Below are positions 14,065 through 25,530 of a stretch of DNA of 47,450 nt, piece by piece. The notes beneath the pieces were generated by a model that saw nothing but the letters and a program-made list of their open reading frames with translations, had not been told where the DNA came from and made no database searches. The translations under genes and the position numbers were made by a program. Source of the DNA: Anaerolineales bacterium (lineage in GTDB: Bacteria; Chloroflexota; Anaerolineae; Anaerolineales; RBG-16-64-43). The stretch covers positions 1 to 47,450 of the forward strand of contig JAFGCU010000112.1 in assembly GCA_016932475.1 (NCBI GenBank). The letters are read 5' to 3'. Every line of letters starts with the position of its first letter. Position 1 is the stretch's first letter.

Positions 14065-14347
14065 GACAAACATGGCGCGAGGGCGAACTTCGGCGGGAGT
14101 TGTCGTTGGTACATTATCCAAAACCGGCCGGGCGCCTGAGCGCCGGGTGGTTGAGTTGCCCAATATTTTTTTATTTTATTTCTACGTTATTGGGTTCCGG
14201 ATTTCCTTTCATGCTCTCGGGGTAATCCGATGCAAAAAATCGTTCCATGCAACATGGAATCGACAGGATGCTGATTTGGGGTTATCCTTCCCCCCTTCAT
14301 AAATCCATTTGCCTTATTCATTCCGATTTTTGTCCGGAGGTAATTCC

Positions 14348-15361
14348 GTGAACGTCATCGAAACGAAGGGACTGTGCAAATCCTTTCGAAGCCCCCTGAA
14401 AAAACCGGGCGTGCTCGGAGCCGTGCGGCACCTGTTCCGGCCGGAGCACCGGGAGATCGTGGCCGTGACGGAGGTCGACCTGGCCATCGCGGCCGGCGAA
14501 TCCGTCGCCTATGTGGGCCCGAACGGGGCGGGAAAATCCACGACGATCAAGATGCTCACCGGAATCCTCCTGCCCACCGGCGGCGAGGTCCGCGTGAACG
14601 GACTCCACCCGTACCACCAGCGGATGCGCAACTCGAAGAACATCGGCGTCGTGTTCGGCCAGCGGACCCAGCTGTGGTGGGATATCCCGGTGATCGAATC
14701 GTTCACGCTCCTGCGCGACATCTACGAGGTGCCCGAAAAAACCTACGCCGAGAACCTCGCCTACTTCACCGGGATGCTCGGCCTCGCGGAGTTGCTCCAC
14801 CAGTCGGCGCGCCGGCTTTCGCTCGGCCAGCGGATGCGCTGCGACCTGGCCGTGGCGCTGATGCACAACCCGGCGATCGTCTTCCTCGATGAACCCACGA
14901 TCGGCCTGGATGTGGCCGTGAAGGAGCGCATCCGCGAGTTCCTCAAGACGGTCAACCGCGAGCGGGGTGTGACGATCATGCTCACCTCGCACGACCTCGG
15001 CGACATCGAGGACGTCTGCCGGCGGCTGATCATCATTGATGCCGGCCGGATCATTTACGACGGCAGCATCCAGGGCCTGCTGGATAGGTACGTCAAGCAG
15101 CGCAGCATCCGGATTATCGCCAGCGCGAGAATCGATCAGCCCTCCGCGGCCAGGGCGATGCCGGCCGGGGTCGAAATTGTCCATGCGGACGAACGGGAGA
15201 TGACGGTCGAGTTCGACCGCTTCCGCTACACGGCCAAGGACGTGCTCGAAATCATCATGACGGCCGCCGAGGTCGTGGATTTCCAACTCGAGGAGCCGGA
15301 TATCGAACGGGTCGTGAAGAACGTGTACGAGGGCCGGCTCGAACTGGAGCAGGGGGCTTGA
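14348..15361 (+). CDS. ABC-2 exporter ATP-binding protein (COG4586-like)
   Basis: A 337-residue ABC ATPase. An N-terminal extension SFRSPLKKPGVLGAVRHLF comes before the core, a hallmark of the COG4586 group. Walker A is GPNGAGKSTT, the signature region RLSLGQRMRCDLAVAL, Walker B IVFLDEPTIGLD, and the H-loop TSHD. The C-terminal ~80 residues are an accessory domain. GTG 14348 is chosen because GGAGG (14336-14340) sits 7 nt before it. It is the first gene of a three-gene operon with two permeases. Substrates of this exporter class are not established. Confidence 0.92.
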   Translation: MNVIETKGLCKSFRSPLKKPGVLGAVRHLFRPEHREIVAVTEVDLAIAAGESVAYVGPNGAGKSTTIKMLTGILLPTGGEVRVNGLHPYHQRMRNSKNIGVVFGQRTQLWWDIPVIESFTLLRDIYEVPEKTYAENLAYFTGMLGLAELLHQSARRLSLGQRMRCDLAVALMHNPAIVFLDEPTIGLDVAVKERIREFLKTVNRERGVTIMLTSHDLGDIEDVCRRLIIIDAGRIIYDGSIQGLLDRYVKQRSIRIIASARIDQPSAARAMPAGVEIVHADEREMTVEFDRFRYTAKDVLEIIMTAAEVVDFQLEEPDIERVVKNVYEGRLELEQGA

Positions 15362-15371
15362 GGAGGCGCGC

Positions 15372-16172
15372 ATGCTGACGTTCCAAAAATACCTCCGGCA
15401 CGTCCTGTGCGCGATCCAGGAGACGACCGCCTACCGCGCCTCGTACTTCATCAACATCGTCTCGCAGTTCGTTTCGTACATCGCGATCTTCTTTCTCTGG
15501 AGGGCGGTCTACACCGGGAACTCCGTGATCGGCGGCATGGATTGGAACGACATGCAGGGCTACCTGCTCATCTCGCTTTTCACCTCCGCGCTCATCTCGG
15601 GCTCCTCGGAATTCCGCGTCTCGCGCTCGATCTGGACCGGCAACATCGCGGTCGAGCTCGTCCGGCCGGTGGATTACCAGAAGGCGAATTTCTCGATCAC
15701 GGTCGGGAACGGGATCGCCGAGGGAGTTCTGGTCGCGGCGATCGGGATCCTCTTTGCCCTGCTGATCGGGTTCGCCGTTCCCCCGGCCAGTCCCGCGGCC
15801 TGGCTGTGCTTCCTGCTCGCGGTCGCCTTTTCGTTCATCACCAAGTTCCTGATCGTCTACATCTTCGGGCTCTTCACGTTCTGGACGACGGGCGGGATGG
15901 GGCTCAGCTGGCTCCGGCGCGGGCTCACGGATTTCTTCTCGGGCGCGATCATCCCGCTCAGCTTCTTCCCCGGCTGGCTCAAGGCGGCAGCCGACGTGCT
16001 GCCCTTCCGCGGGATCGTCAGCGTCCCCGCGACGATCTTCATCGGGCGGTTGCCCCCCTCGCAGATCCTCGCCACCTTCGCGGTCGAGGCGGCCTGGATC
16101 GCGGCGCTTTGGTGGCTCGCGCGGCTGATCTGGCATTTCGCGATGCGGAAAGTCACCATCCACGGAGGCTGA
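15372..16172 (+). CDS. ABC-2 exporter permease (COG4587-like)
   Basis: A 266-residue membrane protein with about six hydrophobic segments. Cytoplasmic-loop residues EFRVSRSIWTGNIAVELVRPVDY match the region that in this family contacts the ATPase. GGAGG lies just ahead of the ATG, and the gap to the ATPase stop is 10 bp. The next gene begins 2 bp after its stop. With its partner it forms the membrane pore of the exporter. Confidence 0.9.
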   Translation: MLTFQKYLRHVLCAIQETTAYRASYFINIVSQFVSYIAIFFLWRAVYTGNSVIGGMDWNDMQGYLLISLFTSALISGSSEFRVSRSIWTGNIAVELVRPVDYQKANFSITVGNGIAEGVLVAAIGILFALLIGFAVPPASPAAWLCFLLAVAFSFITKFLIVYIFGLFTFWTTGGMGLSWLRRGLTDFFSGAIIPLSFFPGWLKAAADVLPFRGIVSVPATIFIGRLPPSQILATFAVEAAWIAALWWLARLIWHFAMRKVTIHGG

Positions 16173-16174
16173 CG

Positions 16175-16972
16175 GTGAGACTGAGCCGGACGGTTTTCCT
16201 GTTCTCGCGCTTCCTCGCGCAGAACATCAAAATCAAGCTGGAATACAAGGCGGATTTCATCATCATGCTGTTTTCCGGATCCGTCCTCCAGCTGCTCGGG
16301 GTGATGTTCCTCGGCGTGCTGTATTCGCGCATCCCGCCGATCCAGGGCTGGACGATGTGGGAGATCGTTCTGATCCTCGCCTCGATCTTCTTCACCGAAG
16401 GCGTGGTTTCCTTCGCGTTCGAGGGGATGTGGCGGATCGTCCGGCTGATCAACCTGGGGGATATGGACCGGTTCCTCCTGCGCCCGGTCTCGCCCATCCT
16501 CCAAATCCTCACGTATGATATCGGCGCCCACGGGATCGGCAACATGATCACCGGCGTCATCCTGTGCGTGATCGCGTTGAGCCGGACCGAGATCCTCTGG
16601 ACGTGGGACCGGATCCTCTACCTGCCGGTGCTGATCGTCAGCGCCGCCGCGATCCGCACCGCGATCTCCTTCGCGGCCAACTGCTCGGGCTTCTGGCTGA
16701 CCTCGTTTTACAATGCGTTTCCGCTGATGGTTCACCAGATGGCGGACTTCGCGAAATATCCGACGACGCTGTTCACGGAACCGATCCAGTTTTTCATCAC
16801 CGTCGTGCTGCCCTACGCGTTCATCGGCTACATCCCCGCCGTCTACCTGTTCCATAAGCAGCCGTGGGGGGCGGCGGCCTGGCTGGCGCCGCTCGTCGCG
16901 GTCTGGTGTGTCCTCATCGCCCGCGCCGTGTTCTACCGCGGCCTGCGGCGGTATGATTCGCCTGGGAATTAG
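16175..16972 (+). CDS. ABC-2 exporter permease (COG3694-like)
   Basis: A 265-residue membrane protein with six or so hydrophobic segments. It carries INLGDMDRFLLRPVSPILQ, parallel to NIAVELVRPVDYQ in the preceding permease. GTG 16175 has GGAGG (16164-16168) 6 nt upstream, inside the end of the previous gene. The frame is open far upstream, but those codons are the shadow of the previous permease. It ends the operon; no clear terminator is visible after it. Confidence 0.9.
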   Translation: MRLSRTVFLFSRFLAQNIKIKLEYKADFIIMLFSGSVLQLLGVMFLGVLYSRIPPIQGWTMWEIVLILASIFFTEGVVSFAFEGMWRIVRLINLGDMDRFLLRPVSPILQILTYDIGAHGIGNMITGVILCVIALSRTEILWTWDRILYLPVLIVSAAAIRTAISFAANCSGFWLTSFYNAFPLMVHQMADFAKYPTTLFTEPIQFFITVVLPYAFIGYIPAVYLFHKQPWGAAAWLAPLVAVWCVLIARAVFYRGLRRYDSPGN

Positions 16973-18648: not shown

Positions 18649-20583
18649 GTGAAAACCCCCGCCCAAGGCTTGGCATCTCCCGCCACGATCGTCTTCCAAT
18701 CCGCCAAGCTGGGTGACCTACCTTGGATTCTCAAAGAATTGGAGTGGGCGGAACAACTGCTCGGCGACGGCACGCCGGTCGGGCGGATCTTCGGCGTGAG
18801 CGGGGGGAATCTCGCGGCGCTGGCCTTCTCCCTGGCGCTGGCGGCCCAAAAATCCCCGAGCATCTGGGGCAAAGCGGCCAACGCACCAGCGGATTTCATG
18901 CGCTTCCTCGGCCGGGCGCGCAGCCGTGACCTGCGAAAGCTGAAATTAAACCCCACTTACGGTTTCCACACCCTGGCGCCCCTTCGGCGCTGGGCGGCCT
19001 CGCGCCTGCGAGCCTACACCGGCCGCGAAGATTGGCGGCTCTCCGAACTGGGCGTGCCGGTGTACTTGTGCACGGTGGATCACGACGCCATATTCTGCAT
19101 GTGCGGACCGCCGGATGACAGCCTGCAATGCGATTATCCTTTCATCCATATTCCACCGCCGCAGGACGCGCCGCTCCTGGATGCGCTGATAGCAGGCCTT
19201 AGCACCCGTCTTTCCACCGATGCCCAAATGGTGAACGGAGCCTGGCGCTGCGACTGCCGCCCGTCGATCGTGGACGCCGGGGCGATCGTGGCCGACCTGG
19301 AAGCCGGCGATCCGCGGCCCATATTGCGCGTGCGGCCTCAGGCCGCCGTCCGCCAATGGCCGGTCAACTGGTTCACCTCCTCCTTCATCATGCACTCATC
19401 CCACGAGCGCAACCAGCCGCTTCTGGCGGAGAGCTACCTGGATTTGCTGGGGCGTCAGCGTGAATTAAAGGAAGCGCTCGCGCAAGCGCCAGGCCTTACG
19501 CACCCCGCGCTCCCTCCGCTTCATCCGGTGGTTGGCCACGTGGATCTGCCCTATATCGGCAGCACCGAAGCCGCCACCAACATGCGCCAATCGGTGGAGA
19601 ACCGCGCCGCCCTGACGGCCCGCTTCCGGGAGATCCTCGATGGGCAGCTGGACGCGTTCCCCTTCGACCAGCCGGCCAACGTCATTTACGGGGCGGGCGG
19701 CTTCTCCGGTATCCTGGCCGGGATGGCCGCCACGCGCGCGGTGGATGAGGGCTTTGCGCGCGGGGGCGGCGAGGTCCGCCAGATTTACGGCGTTTCGGCC
19801 GGGGTGCTGAACGGATTCTTCCATGCTGTTCAGCTCGCCGCCGCGCGCCACCCGGATATATATGCCCCGGCGGCGCGCCGGGCCCTGGACGATCTCGAAA
19901 CCTTCATGGCGCACTGCGAGGCGGGCAAAATCGTCTCGGTCAACCTCAATCCGCTCAAATTCTGGACCGGTTGGGCTAACCTGAGGCCGCTCGAGGGGTT
20001 CTTATTGGAGAAGCTGGCGGCCTACACCGGTTCCCGGCATCCCGACAAAATCACATTCGACGACATCGCCCTGCCGCTGACGGTGACGGCCGCACGCACC
20101 GACGGATTCACCGAATTTTTCGGGATGACCAAGCCCGCCCGCGGCTTCGCCTGGAGCGGGCGTGCCTGGGAGATCGTGCCCGCCCCGGTGGTGCGGGCGC
20201 TGCTCGCCGGCTGGAGCATGAACACCTACACCATTCCGATTGTGATGAACGGCCAACAGTACATGGACGGCGGCGGGACTTTTTACGACCCGGGGATTCT
20301 TGTGGCCTGCCTGGACCCGCAGCTGGCCAACCTGCTGAACATTCACCTGGACGAGCCCGACGGGCATTCCTACAACCTTCCGCCGCGCATGAACCTGGTG
20401 AACATCCTTTTCGACACGCACAACCTCACGTTCCCCGAGCAGCGGCGGCGGATGCGCGCGCTCACCAATCTGCTGTACGAGCACTTCCGGCTCCGCGCGC
20501 AGGCGCAGGCGGCGGGCGTCGCGCTTCCGCCCGACTTCCGAACGAATTGGACGATCAAGCATTCGAAATCCATCGACCTGTAG
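18649..20583 (+). CDS. Tandem double-patatin phospholipase-like protein
   Basis: A 644-residue soluble protein made of two patatin-like halves. Half 1 (about 10-240) has GVSGG with Ser51, but its oxyanion loop is not glycine-rich (QSAKLGD) and its DGG/A motif reads DAG (209-211), so it looks weakened or inactive. Half 2 (about 340-620) is complete: GAGGFSG (348-354), GVSAG with Ser383 and DGG at 540-542. The halves align over LNPxxxxxxLxPLRxxxxxxLxAYTG, then VPVYLCTVDHD / LPLTVTAARTD. Patatins use a Ser-Asp dyad to cut acyl chains from lipids. No signal peptide is visible. A GPH-type transporter gene follows 7 bp later, pointing to lipid turnover coupled to transport. Confidence 0.85.
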   Translation: MKTPAQGLASPATIVFQSAKLGDLPWILKELEWAEQLLGDGTPVGRIFGVSGGNLAALAFSLALAAQKSPSIWGKAANAPADFMRFLGRARSRDLRKLKLNPTYGFHTLAPLRRWAASRLRAYTGREDWRLSELGVPVYLCTVDHDAIFCMCGPPDDSLQCDYPFIHIPPPQDAPLLDALIAGLSTRLSTDAQMVNGAWRCDCRPSIVDAGAIVADLEAGDPRPILRVRPQAAVRQWPVNWFTSSFIMHSSHERNQPLLAESYLDLLGRQRELKEALAQAPGLTHPALPPLHPVVGHVDLPYIGSTEAATNMRQSVENRAALTARFREILDGQLDAFPFDQPANVIYGAGGFSGILAGMAATRAVDEGFARGGGEVRQIYGVSAGVLNGFFHAVQLAAARHPDIYAPAARRALDDLETFMAHCEAGKIVSVNLNPLKFWTGWANLRPLEGFLLEKLAAYTGSRHPDKITFDDIALPLTVTAARTDGFTEFFGMTKPARGFAWSGRAWEIVPAPVVRALLAGWSMNTYTIPIVMNGQQYMDGGGTFYDPGILVACLDPQLANLLNIHLDEPDGHSYNLPPRMNLVNILFDTHNLTFPEQRRRMRALTNLLYEHFRLRAQAQAAGVALPPDFRTNWTIKHSKSIDL

Positions 20584-20590
20584 AGGTGCA

Positions 20591-21970
20591 ATGAAAACCG
20601 AGAGACTCTCCCGCACGACGAAGCTCGCGTACGGCGCCGGCGACCTGGGGGCGGCGATCGTCACCGCCATCAACGGATTCTTCCTGCTCAACTTCCTGAT
20701 CAACGTCGCCGGGCTGCGCCCGGGGATGGCCGGCAACATCTTCCTCATCGTGAAGATCTGGGATGCGGTCAACGATCCCATCATCGGATGGCTGACCGAT
20801 CACACCGTGAGCCGGATGGGGCGCCGCCGCCCCTGGCTGCTGATCGCGGCCATTCCGTTCGCGCTCATGTTCTTCCTGCAATGGATCGTGCCGCCCTTCG
20901 ACGAAGCGGGCAAGTTTGTATATTACCTGATCGTGGCCGTCTTCCTGGATTTTGCCTTCACGGCGGTCAATGTGCCGTACGCGGCCCTGACCGCGGAGCT
21001 TACCCAGGATTACGACGAACGCACGCGCCTTTCCTCCGTGCGCATGAGCTTCTCGATCATCGGCGGGGTGCTGGCGGCTTTTTTCCACGGCATCATCGTC
21101 AGCCAATTTCCGGATAACCCCAACCTCGGCTACATGACCAGCGCCGCCATCTGGGCGTTTGCCATCGCCATTCCTTGTTTCATCACCTTCTTCGGAACCC
21201 GGGAACCGGATTTTGCGATCCTTGCCAGGCCGGCCGCAAGCGGGCCGGGATTTTTCGAAGGGCTGCGGATCGCCTTCCGCAACAAAGCCTTTATCCTGGT
21301 CACGGTGATCTACATGCTTTCATGGCTGGCTATCCAGTTCGCCCAAAACAACCTGCAGATCTACACCAAGGACTGGATCAAAATGGATATGGCCATGTTC
21401 AGCTTCTTGCTGCTGGCGATCCAGTTCTCCTCGTTCGTCTGGGTGTTGATCTGGGCCAGGGTCAGCGAGCGGATCGGCAAAAAGAACGTCTACTACCTGG
21501 GCGCGCTCTTCTTCGTGCTGGCCCTGATGGGGCTGTTCTTTCTCCAGCCCGGCGATGTGGTGCCGACTTTCCTCCTGGCGGCCATGGCGGGGGTCGGCAT
21601 CTCGGTCGGATACCTGGTGCCGTGGAGCATGGTGCCGGATGTGGTGGAACTGGACGAATTGGAGACCGGCCAGCGGCGGGAGGGCGTTTTCTACGGGTTC
21701 TTCGTTTTTCTGCAAAAGATGGGCCTGGCGGTGGGGCTGTTCGTCTCCGGTTGGGCGCTCGAACTTTCCGGGTATATAAACGCCACGACGGCGAATCCCG
21801 ATCCGGTCCAGCCCGCTTCGGCGCTTCTGGCGATGCGCGTGCTCATCGGCCCGGTCAGCGCGGCGGTTCTGCTGCTCAGTTTCCTGGCGGTGCGCGCCTA
21901 CCCGATCACGCGCGAGAAGCACGCCGAGATGCGCGCGGAACTGGCGCGGAGGAAAGCGGCCAGGGCTTAA
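20591..21970 (+). CDS. GPH (MelB-like) cation-coupled MFS transporter
   Basis: A 459-residue, 12-helix major facilitator of the glycoside-pentoside-hexuronide:cation group. The N-terminus KLAYGAGDLG and the helix II motif WDAVNDPIIGWLTD retain both acidic residues of the MelB cation site (Asp58 and Asp62 here). The loop RMGRRRPWLL and the later MVPDVVELDELETGQRREGVFYG are also family hallmarks. MelB moves sugars with Na+ or H+; the animal relative Mfsd2a moves lysophosphatidylcholine using the same fold and cation site. The gene starts 7 bp after the patatin stop, with AGAGG inside that junction, so the two are co-expressed. Sugar or lysolipid as substrate is open; the neighbour favours a lipid. 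Confidence 0.9.
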   Translation: MKTERLSRTTKLAYGAGDLGAAIVTAINGFFLLNFLINVAGLRPGMAGNIFLIVKIWDAVNDPIIGWLTDHTVSRMGRRRPWLLIAAIPFALMFFLQWIVPPFDEAGKFVYYLIVAVFLDFAFTAVNVPYAALTAELTQDYDERTRLSSVRMSFSIIGGVLAAFFHGIIVSQFPDNPNLGYMTSAAIWAFAIAIPCFITFFGTREPDFAILARPAASGPGFFEGLRIAFRNKAFILVTVIYMLSWLAIQFAQNNLQIYTKDWIKMDMAMFSFLLLAIQFSSFVWVLIWARVSERIGKKNVYYLGALFFVLALMGLFFLQPGDVVPTFLLAAMAGVGISVGYLVPWSMVPDVVELDELETGQRREGVFYGFFVFLQKMGLAVGLFVSGWALELSGYINATTANPDPVQPASALLAMRVLIGPVSAAVLLLSFLAVRAYPITREKHAEMRAELARRKAARA

Positions 21971-24330: not shown

Positions 24331-25530
24331 ATGACCGGCATTAAGCGCATCCTCATCCTCACCGCCGACGCGGGCTACGGCCACCGCAGCTCCGCGATCG
24401 CTGTGGCCGCGGCGCTGCAGGAGACGCACCCGGAGGAATGCGCGGTCGAGATCGTCAATCCGCTGGAGGATAAGCGCGTCCCGGCGCCCCTGCGCCGGAG
24501 CGGCTCGAGCTACGATTGGATCGTCCGCAAAATCCCGCAGCTGTACAAATTAAATTACGAAGTTTCCGATTCGGGGCCGACCACCGCGGTAATCCACAAC
24601 GCACTGGCAGCGGTCCTGTTCCAGGTGATGGGAGACCTAGTCCGGCGCGTGAACCCGGATGCGATCGTCACGACCTACCCGGTCTACCAGGCTCCGCTCA
24701 CCGCCGTGTTCGCGCTCAACCGTTGCGAGGTCCCGCTGCTAAATGTGGTGACGGATTACGCTCCGGTGCACCGGATCTATTTTCACCGGGCGGCGGACTG
24801 GTGCTGTGTTTCGATTCCGGCGGCGCGCGACGATGCGATCGCGAGCGGCCTGAAGCCGGAGAAGGTCGTAGTGACGGGAATCCCGGTCCATCCGAATCTG
24901 GCGAAGGAAGCGCGGCCGCCGGACGCCGTCCGGGCCGAACTGGGCTGGCGGCCTGAACTCCGGACCGCGCTCGTCGTCGGTGGAAGGCGGGTGAAGAACC
25001 TGAACGGCATCCTGCGCGCCTTGAACCATTCCGGATTGCCGCTGCAGCTGACCATCGTCGCCGGGGGAGACGAGGCGCAGTACCGCGAATTCCAGACCGT
25101 CGAATGGCACCTTCCGGCCCGTGTGCTTAATTTCGTCGAGAACATGCCGGATCTCATGCATGCCTCGGATTTCATCGTTTGCAAGGCGGGCGGGCTGATC
25201 GTCACCGAATCCCTTGCCTGCGGCCTGCCGATCCTGCTTACGGATTACATCGAAGGGCAGGAGACGGGCAATGTCCGCTATGTGGTGGAAGGGGGCGCGG
25301 GGGAGTTGGCGCGCAACCCGCTCGACGCGCTGGAGGCGGTCCATCACTGGCTGGCGCACGGGGGCGAGATGCTGGCCCGCCGCGGGCGCAACGCGCGCAG
25401 CCTCGGGTACCCGCGCGCGGCTTACGACGTGGCAAGGCTGGCGTGGGATGCGGCGCTTCGCGGTCCGCAGCCGCGGCCTGTGATTAACCTGCCCGATCAG
25501 ATCGAAAAAATGGTGAAGCGCATGCAATGA
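24331..25530 (+). CDS. MGDG synthase-like glycosyltransferase (GT28 type)
   Basis: A 399-residue GT-B glycosyltransferase. The N-terminal domain starts RILILTADAGYGHRSSAIAVAAAL, the MGDG synthase/UgtP pattern (GxGHxxAA). The middle has VVTDYAPVHRIYFHRAADWCCV and VVTGIPVHP. The C-terminal nucleotide-sugar domain has VAGGDEAQYREF, FVENMPDLMHASDFIVCKAGG and TESLACGLPILL, ending the donor site with Gln and Glu in EGQETGN. Relatives transfer galactose or glucose from UDP-sugar to diacylglycerol at the cytoplasmic membrane face. No signal or transmembrane segment is seen. It is a single gene with no clear Shine-Dalgarno sequence. Confidence 0.88.
   Translation: MTGIKRILILTADAGYGHRSSAIAVAAALQETHPEECAVEIVNPLEDKRVPAPLRRSGSSYDWIVRKIPQLYKLNYEVSDSGPTTAVIHNALAAVLFQVMGDLVRRVNPDAIVTTYPVYQAPLTAVFALNRCEVPLLNVVTDYAPVHRIYFHRAADWCCVSIPAARDDAIASGLKPEKVVVTGIPVHPNLAKEARPPDAVRAELGWRPELRTALVVGGRRVKNLNGILRALNHSGLPLQLTIVAGGDEAQYREFQTVEWHLPARVLNFVENMPDLMHASDFIVCKAGGLIVTESLACGLPILLTDYIEGQETGNVRYVVEGGAGELARNPLDALEAVHHWLAHGGEMLARRGRNARSLGYPRAAYDVARLAWDAALRGPQPRPVINLPDQIEKMVKRMQ

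Follow-up and report, generated by a model that had tools for sequence, protein, structure and literature searches.

A conserved gene pair in Chloroflexota joins a double-patatin protein to an MFS_2/GPH symporter, possibly an operon that serves to import and cleave an acylated amphiphile

Why should a gene for a patatin-like acyl hydrolase lie directly upstream of a gene for a cation symporter of the MFS_2/GPH family, and do the two products handle a common substrate? The question is raised by a 47,450-nucleotide stretch of an Anaerolineales genome, which we call the window. On its + strand, a double patatin-like acyl hydrolase gene (18649 to 20583; 644 amino acids, GTG start, no evident signal peptide) is followed by a gene for a 459-amino-acid cation symporter (20591 to 21970, + strand) whose favored placement within the family is on the MFSD2A side. 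An earlier note on this DNA had described genes 7 bp apart, and both open reading frames are indeed present on the same strand, separated by a 7-bp intergenic gap. A Shine-Dalgarno-like AGAGGTG (20582 to 20588, + strand) overlaps TAG, the patatin stop codon (20581 to 20583). The same layout occurs in loci L040 and L054 to L058, and seven loci have a gap of exactly 7 bp, with the Shine-Dalgarno sequence of the transporter overlapping the stop codon of the patatin. Such a layout suggests translational coupling of the two genes, and we infer that they are co-transcribed because the 7-bp gap comes with this conserved overlap. The single promoter claimed in the earlier note was not borne out, since a sigma-70 scan upstream of the pair found no site on the + strand.

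The linkage between patatin and transporter is far beyond chance. Scanning 84,980 species genomes for the patatin, we found 14 loci, which were in Chloroflexota; two of the matches were fragments. Among 13 distinct loci in named genomes, the transporter was directly downstream of the patatin in eight: five in or near the Anaerolineaceae, two in other Anaerolineales or Chloroflexota, and one in Candidatus Aquidulcis. Among the paired loci in or near the Anaerolineaceae are those of the cultured Leptolinea tardivitalis YMTK-2 and of Leptolinea sp. HRD-7, whose genome is complete. No transporter adjoined the patatin in four of the 14 scanned loci, and the patatin-only genomes that were checked had no close transporter copy elsewhere (best identity, 35 to 37%). 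The window's order was sampled by 400 genomes drawn evenly from it. In these, the patatin was directly upstream of all eight transporters with at least 80% identity, and 9 of the 11 patatin-bearing genomes had the pair (Fisher P of about 1e-14, a value that ignores shared ancestry). A neighborhood search of this kind had been proposed in the earlier note, which named the lack of conserved linkage in other genomes as the result that would speak against it; both counts instead revealed conserved linkage. Because the genes flanking the pair vary between genera, the pair itself is the conserved unit.

Upstream of the pair, the window encodes an ABC-2 type exporter (an ATPase and two membrane proteins; 14309 to 16972). 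In a family-mate (L054, 10883 to 13534), homologs of this exporter (85% and 78%) lie downstream of the pair, and therefore one of the two, pair or exporter, has changed position. We considered the pair as a mobile module and rejected this idea, as the patatin had no plasmid match. The window also contains, at 24331 to 25530, a putative glycosyltransferase that, judged by eye from its sequence, resembles the monogalactosyldiacylglycerol synthase type (UDP-sugar diacylglycerol glycosyltransferase); it would be a further lipid-related gene near the pair.

The hydrolase is made of two homologous patatin halves (hhalign, 99%, E = 7e-19), which also cross-matched each other in tblastn. The first spans about residues 8 to 250 (18670 to 19398; approximate boundaries taken from the model), and the second spans about residues 340 to 620 (19666 to 20508); these halves and the motifs described below are all on the + strand. 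A model built from 11 orthologs matched PlpD (Z = 14.4) and potato patatin (Z = 13.7), and plain Foldseek matches were weak. PF01734 was detected in the second half only of the window protein (29.4 bits; cutoff, 27.7); among nine orthologs, it matched the second half in all nine and the first half in four. The full patatin signature, which consists of a glycine-rich oxyanion loop, a GXSXG serine, and a DG[GA] aspartate, is likewise found in the second half only. There, the loop GAGGFSG (19690 to 19710), Ser383 in GVSAG (19795 to 19797), and Asp540 in DGG (20266 to 20268) are invariant in 11 aligned orthologs. The first half has the nucleophile elbow GVSGG with Ser51 (18799 to 18801), which is invariant in the aligned sequences, but QSAKLGD replaces the glycine-rich oxyanion loop and DCRP replaces DGG. 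Across orthologs, Asp202 of this half (19252 to 19254) is followed by Cys or Ala and then by Arg and Pro. We rejected Asp209 (in VDAG) as the catalytic aspartate of the first half, as the profile alignment pairs Asp202 with the catalytic Asp540 instead. Judged by these motifs, the second half is likely the enzyme, and the first half is probably a weakened, inactive, or binding domain.

Hydropathy analysis of the patatin found no evident signal peptide or transmembrane helix, the one marginal segment, at residue 47, falling within the helix of the nucleophile elbow. The protein is therefore probably cytosolic. It has the patatin fold and the Ser-Asp dyad in common with PlpD and potato patatin, but differs from them in having two patatin halves in one chain, in probably not being secreted, and in having no beta-barrel. 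Lipid acyl esters are the usual substrates of patatins, and patatin folds are active on non-lipid esters and thioesters too.

The transporter matched PF13347 (338 bits; cutoff, 27) and TIGR00792 gph (303 bits; cutoff, 231). Among solved structures, its best match in both sequence and fold was MFSD2A, the Na+-dependent lysophosphatidylcholine symporter of vertebrates, to which it is about 30% identical over 461 columns. In phmmer searches, it scored 182 bits with MFSD2A and 107 bits with MelB, and Foldseek placed MFSD2A first and MelB next. The transporter model has a mean pLDDT of 71.7, too low for judging a lateral gap or the lining of a pocket. The corresponding scores of two Escherichia coli controls were 64 and 192 bits for YicJ and 63 and 129 bits for UidB. 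An ortholog without a patatin (212 and 102 bits) and a paralog in the window's own genome (171 and 96 bits) scored like the window transporter, and therefore a broad branch of Chloroflexota carriers, not just the patatin-linked ones, has this MFSD2A-side character. Slow evolution may account for part of the gap between the MFSD2A and MelB bit scores. In a maximum-likelihood tree, which has long branches and includes sugar carriers from E. coli only, the six E. coli sugar-type carriers fell on one side (100/100) and MFSD2A fell on the other side with the Chloroflexota carriers. Nine patatin-linked carriers formed one clade (100/100), and the Aquidulcis carrier was outside it. A tree in which MFSD2A joins the sugar carriers was not rejected by an approximately unbiased (AU) test (P = 0.18). 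From these sequence comparisons, a position on the MFSD2A side of the MFS_2/GPH family is favored but not proven. The earlier note had brought in Mfsd2a as a carrier with the MelB fold and site; a place for the transporter on the MFSD2A side is supported by sequence similarity and by the best fold match.

Both aspartates of the MelB cation site are kept, as had been noted before: Asp58 and Asp62 (20762 to 20776, + strand) align with MelB Asp55 and Asp59 and, together with Lys376 (MelB Lys377), are invariant in all 10 patatin-linked carriers. Asp62 occurs in all aligned MFS_2 carriers and Asp58 in most, sugar carriers included. According to published work, nearly all family members keep the cation site, and only MelB orthologs keep the galactoside ligands (PMC8329300). 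The aspartates had served as an argument for lipid transport; because they are common to sugar carriers, both in our alignment and in that study (PMC8329300), we rejected them as a sign of it. The MelB galactoside ligands Lys18, Asp19, Asp124, and Trp128 correspond to Ala21, Ala22, Asn127, and Ala131 in the transporter, so the conserved sugar-binding residues that the earlier note had named as counterevidence were not found. We also set aside this absence as a sign of a lipid substrate, a weak one given that the ligands are conserved only in MelB orthologs (PMC8329300).

General positions kept in the transporter are Asp58, Asp62, Arg151, Met152, Trp345, Glu364, Tyr368, and Lys376. With MFSD2A it has in common Asp58, Asp62, an acidic position in TM4, the PWS motif, Arg151, Glu364, and Lys376. 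Two of the features found in both proteins are absent from the sugar carriers, namely, the Pro of PWS and the acidic residue at the position of MelB Gly117 (Asp120 in the transporter, at 20948 to 20950 on the + strand; Glu in MFSD2A; Gly or Thr in the six E. coli GPH carriers). The substitution Arg84Lys abolishes transport by Mfsd2a. The transporter has Lys55 at this position, and the other lysophosphatidylcholine ligands of MFSD2A that are replaced are Tyr50 (by Ala21), Gln51 (Ala22), His156 (Asn127), Ser160 (Ala131), Glu184 (Ser155), Glu309 (Gln252), and Thr432 (Gln375) (ligands from PMC10167227). These replaced positions are those of the zwitterion traps of MFSD2A, and Glu312 is replaced too (PMC10167227, PMC10250862). 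Since the ligands are mostly replaced, the head group, if the carrier moves a lipid, is likely to be other than lysophosphatidylcholine.

Relatives of the transporter also occur beside other enzymes. In six genomes of the same order (L042, L044 to L047, and L051), carriers that are 57 to 70% identical and have no patatin adjoin a TIGR03617 F420-dependent luciferase-like oxidoreductase, an enzyme other than a lipase; two of the six are flanked on their other side by a membrane dipeptidase (M19). More distant MFSD2A-side carriers adjoin a GNAT-like protein of about 375 amino acids in nine loci (L053, L077, L078, L080, L082, L083, L086, L089, and L092), which include the paralog in the window's genome (G000:C4). 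No NCBIfam model names this protein, which could be a candidate lipid N-acyltransferase or, conceivably, a ceramide synthase. In two Dehalococcoidia (L061, 2283 to 4659; L065, 8856 to 11381), a conserved ABC transporter for polar amino acids (binding protein, permease, and ATPase) takes the place of the carrier behind the double patatin. Neither gene is therefore tied to the other across its whole family.

How does the pair compare with known systems? GPH symporter genes often adjoin the gene for the hydrolase of the substrate that is brought in, as those of E. coli do in uidA-uidB, yicI-yicJ, melA-melB, and yihO/P-yihQ. In the melA, uidA, and yicI systems, as in the window, a GPH symporter is directly beside a hydrolase and the cation-site Asp and Lys are kept. 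In contrast to these systems, the window hydrolase is of the patatin type, not a glycosidase, and the favored placement of its carrier is on the MFSD2A side. LplT belongs to a different MFS family from the window transporter. In Gram-negative bacteria, it is the lysophospholipid flippase of LplT-Aas, where an MFS lysolipid carrier works with a lipid enzyme (PMC11416262), a plan like the one proposed for the window pair. The enzyme of LplT-Aas is an acyltransferase, whereas that of the window is a hydrolase. The earlier note knew of no described bacterial system of this kind, and our search of open-licence papers agreed: neither a patatin-GPH pair nor, in these bacteria, double patatins turned up in them. 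Both families and the operon plan were known before; their combination in this pair is new.

We tentatively propose, as a reading that is quite possible, that the two genes form an operon for the uptake and cleavage of an acylated amphiphile. The gene pair, the families of its products, and its conservation are observations, from which we infer a joint pathway, its direction, its cation coupling, and the class of its substrate. The symporter, driven by Na+ or H+ via Asp58, Asp62, and Lys376, would import an amphiphilic ester across the single membrane. This substrate would be single chain or otherwise small (a lysolipid, an acylated glycolipid, or similar). The cytosolic patatin would then remove the acyl chain with its second domain (Ser383 and Asp540), and the first patatin domain would have a binding or scaffolding role. 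The logic would be that of melA-melB, uidA-uidB, and yicI-yicJ, with a lipid-type hydrolase standing in for the glycosidase and an MFSD2A-side carrier for the sugar carrier. We prefer uptake before cleavage because the patatin has no evident signal peptide or transmembrane helix; on the same grounds, the order given in the earlier note, release and then transport, is probably reversed. The lipid reading of that note survives in part: the conserved pair and the MFSD2A-side carrier speak for it, but the argument from the aspartates is lost and the lysophosphatidylcholine-binding positions are mostly different. Points against the proposed uptake and cleavage are the loss of most of these ligands, the result of the AU test, the carrier relatives linked to F420-dependent oxidoreductases, the ABC-linked patatins of Dehalococcoidia, and the activity of patatin folds on non-lipid esters and thioesters. 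That the symporter imports lysolipids or acylated amphiphiles for a dedicated cytosolic double patatin, such systems being prokaryotic counterparts of the animal lysolipid carrier, we regard as doubtful.

Nothing lipid-like need cross the membrane if the carrier imports a polar solute, such as an acylated (e.g., acetylated) sugar, a glycoside, or a small ester, which the patatin then deacylates. This explanation would fit TIGR00792 and the characterized bacterial members of the family, which are sugar-type carriers. It would also fit the mostly absent lysophosphatidylcholine-binding residues and Asn127, which is at the position of MelB Asp124, where five of the six E. coli GPH carriers have Asn as well. 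However, scores, fold, and tree set the transporter apart from the sugar carriers, and patatins have their general preference for lipid esters; we consider a polar solute somewhat unlikely, though a serious competitor.

One form of the proposal of the earlier note, in which the patatin trims inner-leaflet lipids and the carrier moves the lysolipid or glycerophosphodiester out or between leaflets, draws on the patatin fold, the conserved pair, the MFSD2A-side carrier, and the flipping of lysolipids by MFSD2A from one leaflet to the other (PMC10167227). Import, with the hydrolase acting on an imported substrate, is instead favored by the cation site and by the family symporters of known direction, and the genes next to the pair included no glycerophosphodiester enzyme. 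On balance, this route is improbable. Still less probable is an old operon with shared regulation and neither a shared substrate nor a joint pathway. Transporter relatives do pair with other enzymes, and some patatin loci, in Dehalococcoidia and elsewhere, lack the transporter, but in the paired lineages both genes stay together while all other neighbors change. The fold matches of the patatin include CapE and CapV, yet an anti-phage effector of their type with an incidental carrier is very improbable, as neither protein matches a PADLOC family at E values up to 1, no cyclase-type partner gene was seen beside the patatin, and its conserved partner is the transporter.

The operon is short, and Leptolinea tardivitalis YMTK-2, which carries it, is in culture; this makes uptake and cleavage of an acylated amphiphile, the reading that we prefer, testable. 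Should the carrier move lipids, a family of sugar carriers would have bacterial lipid members, and the finding would be a caution against labeling all GPH proteins as sugar transporters. The origin of MFSD2A, the lysolipid carrier of the animal brain, would then be open to study in a small operon.
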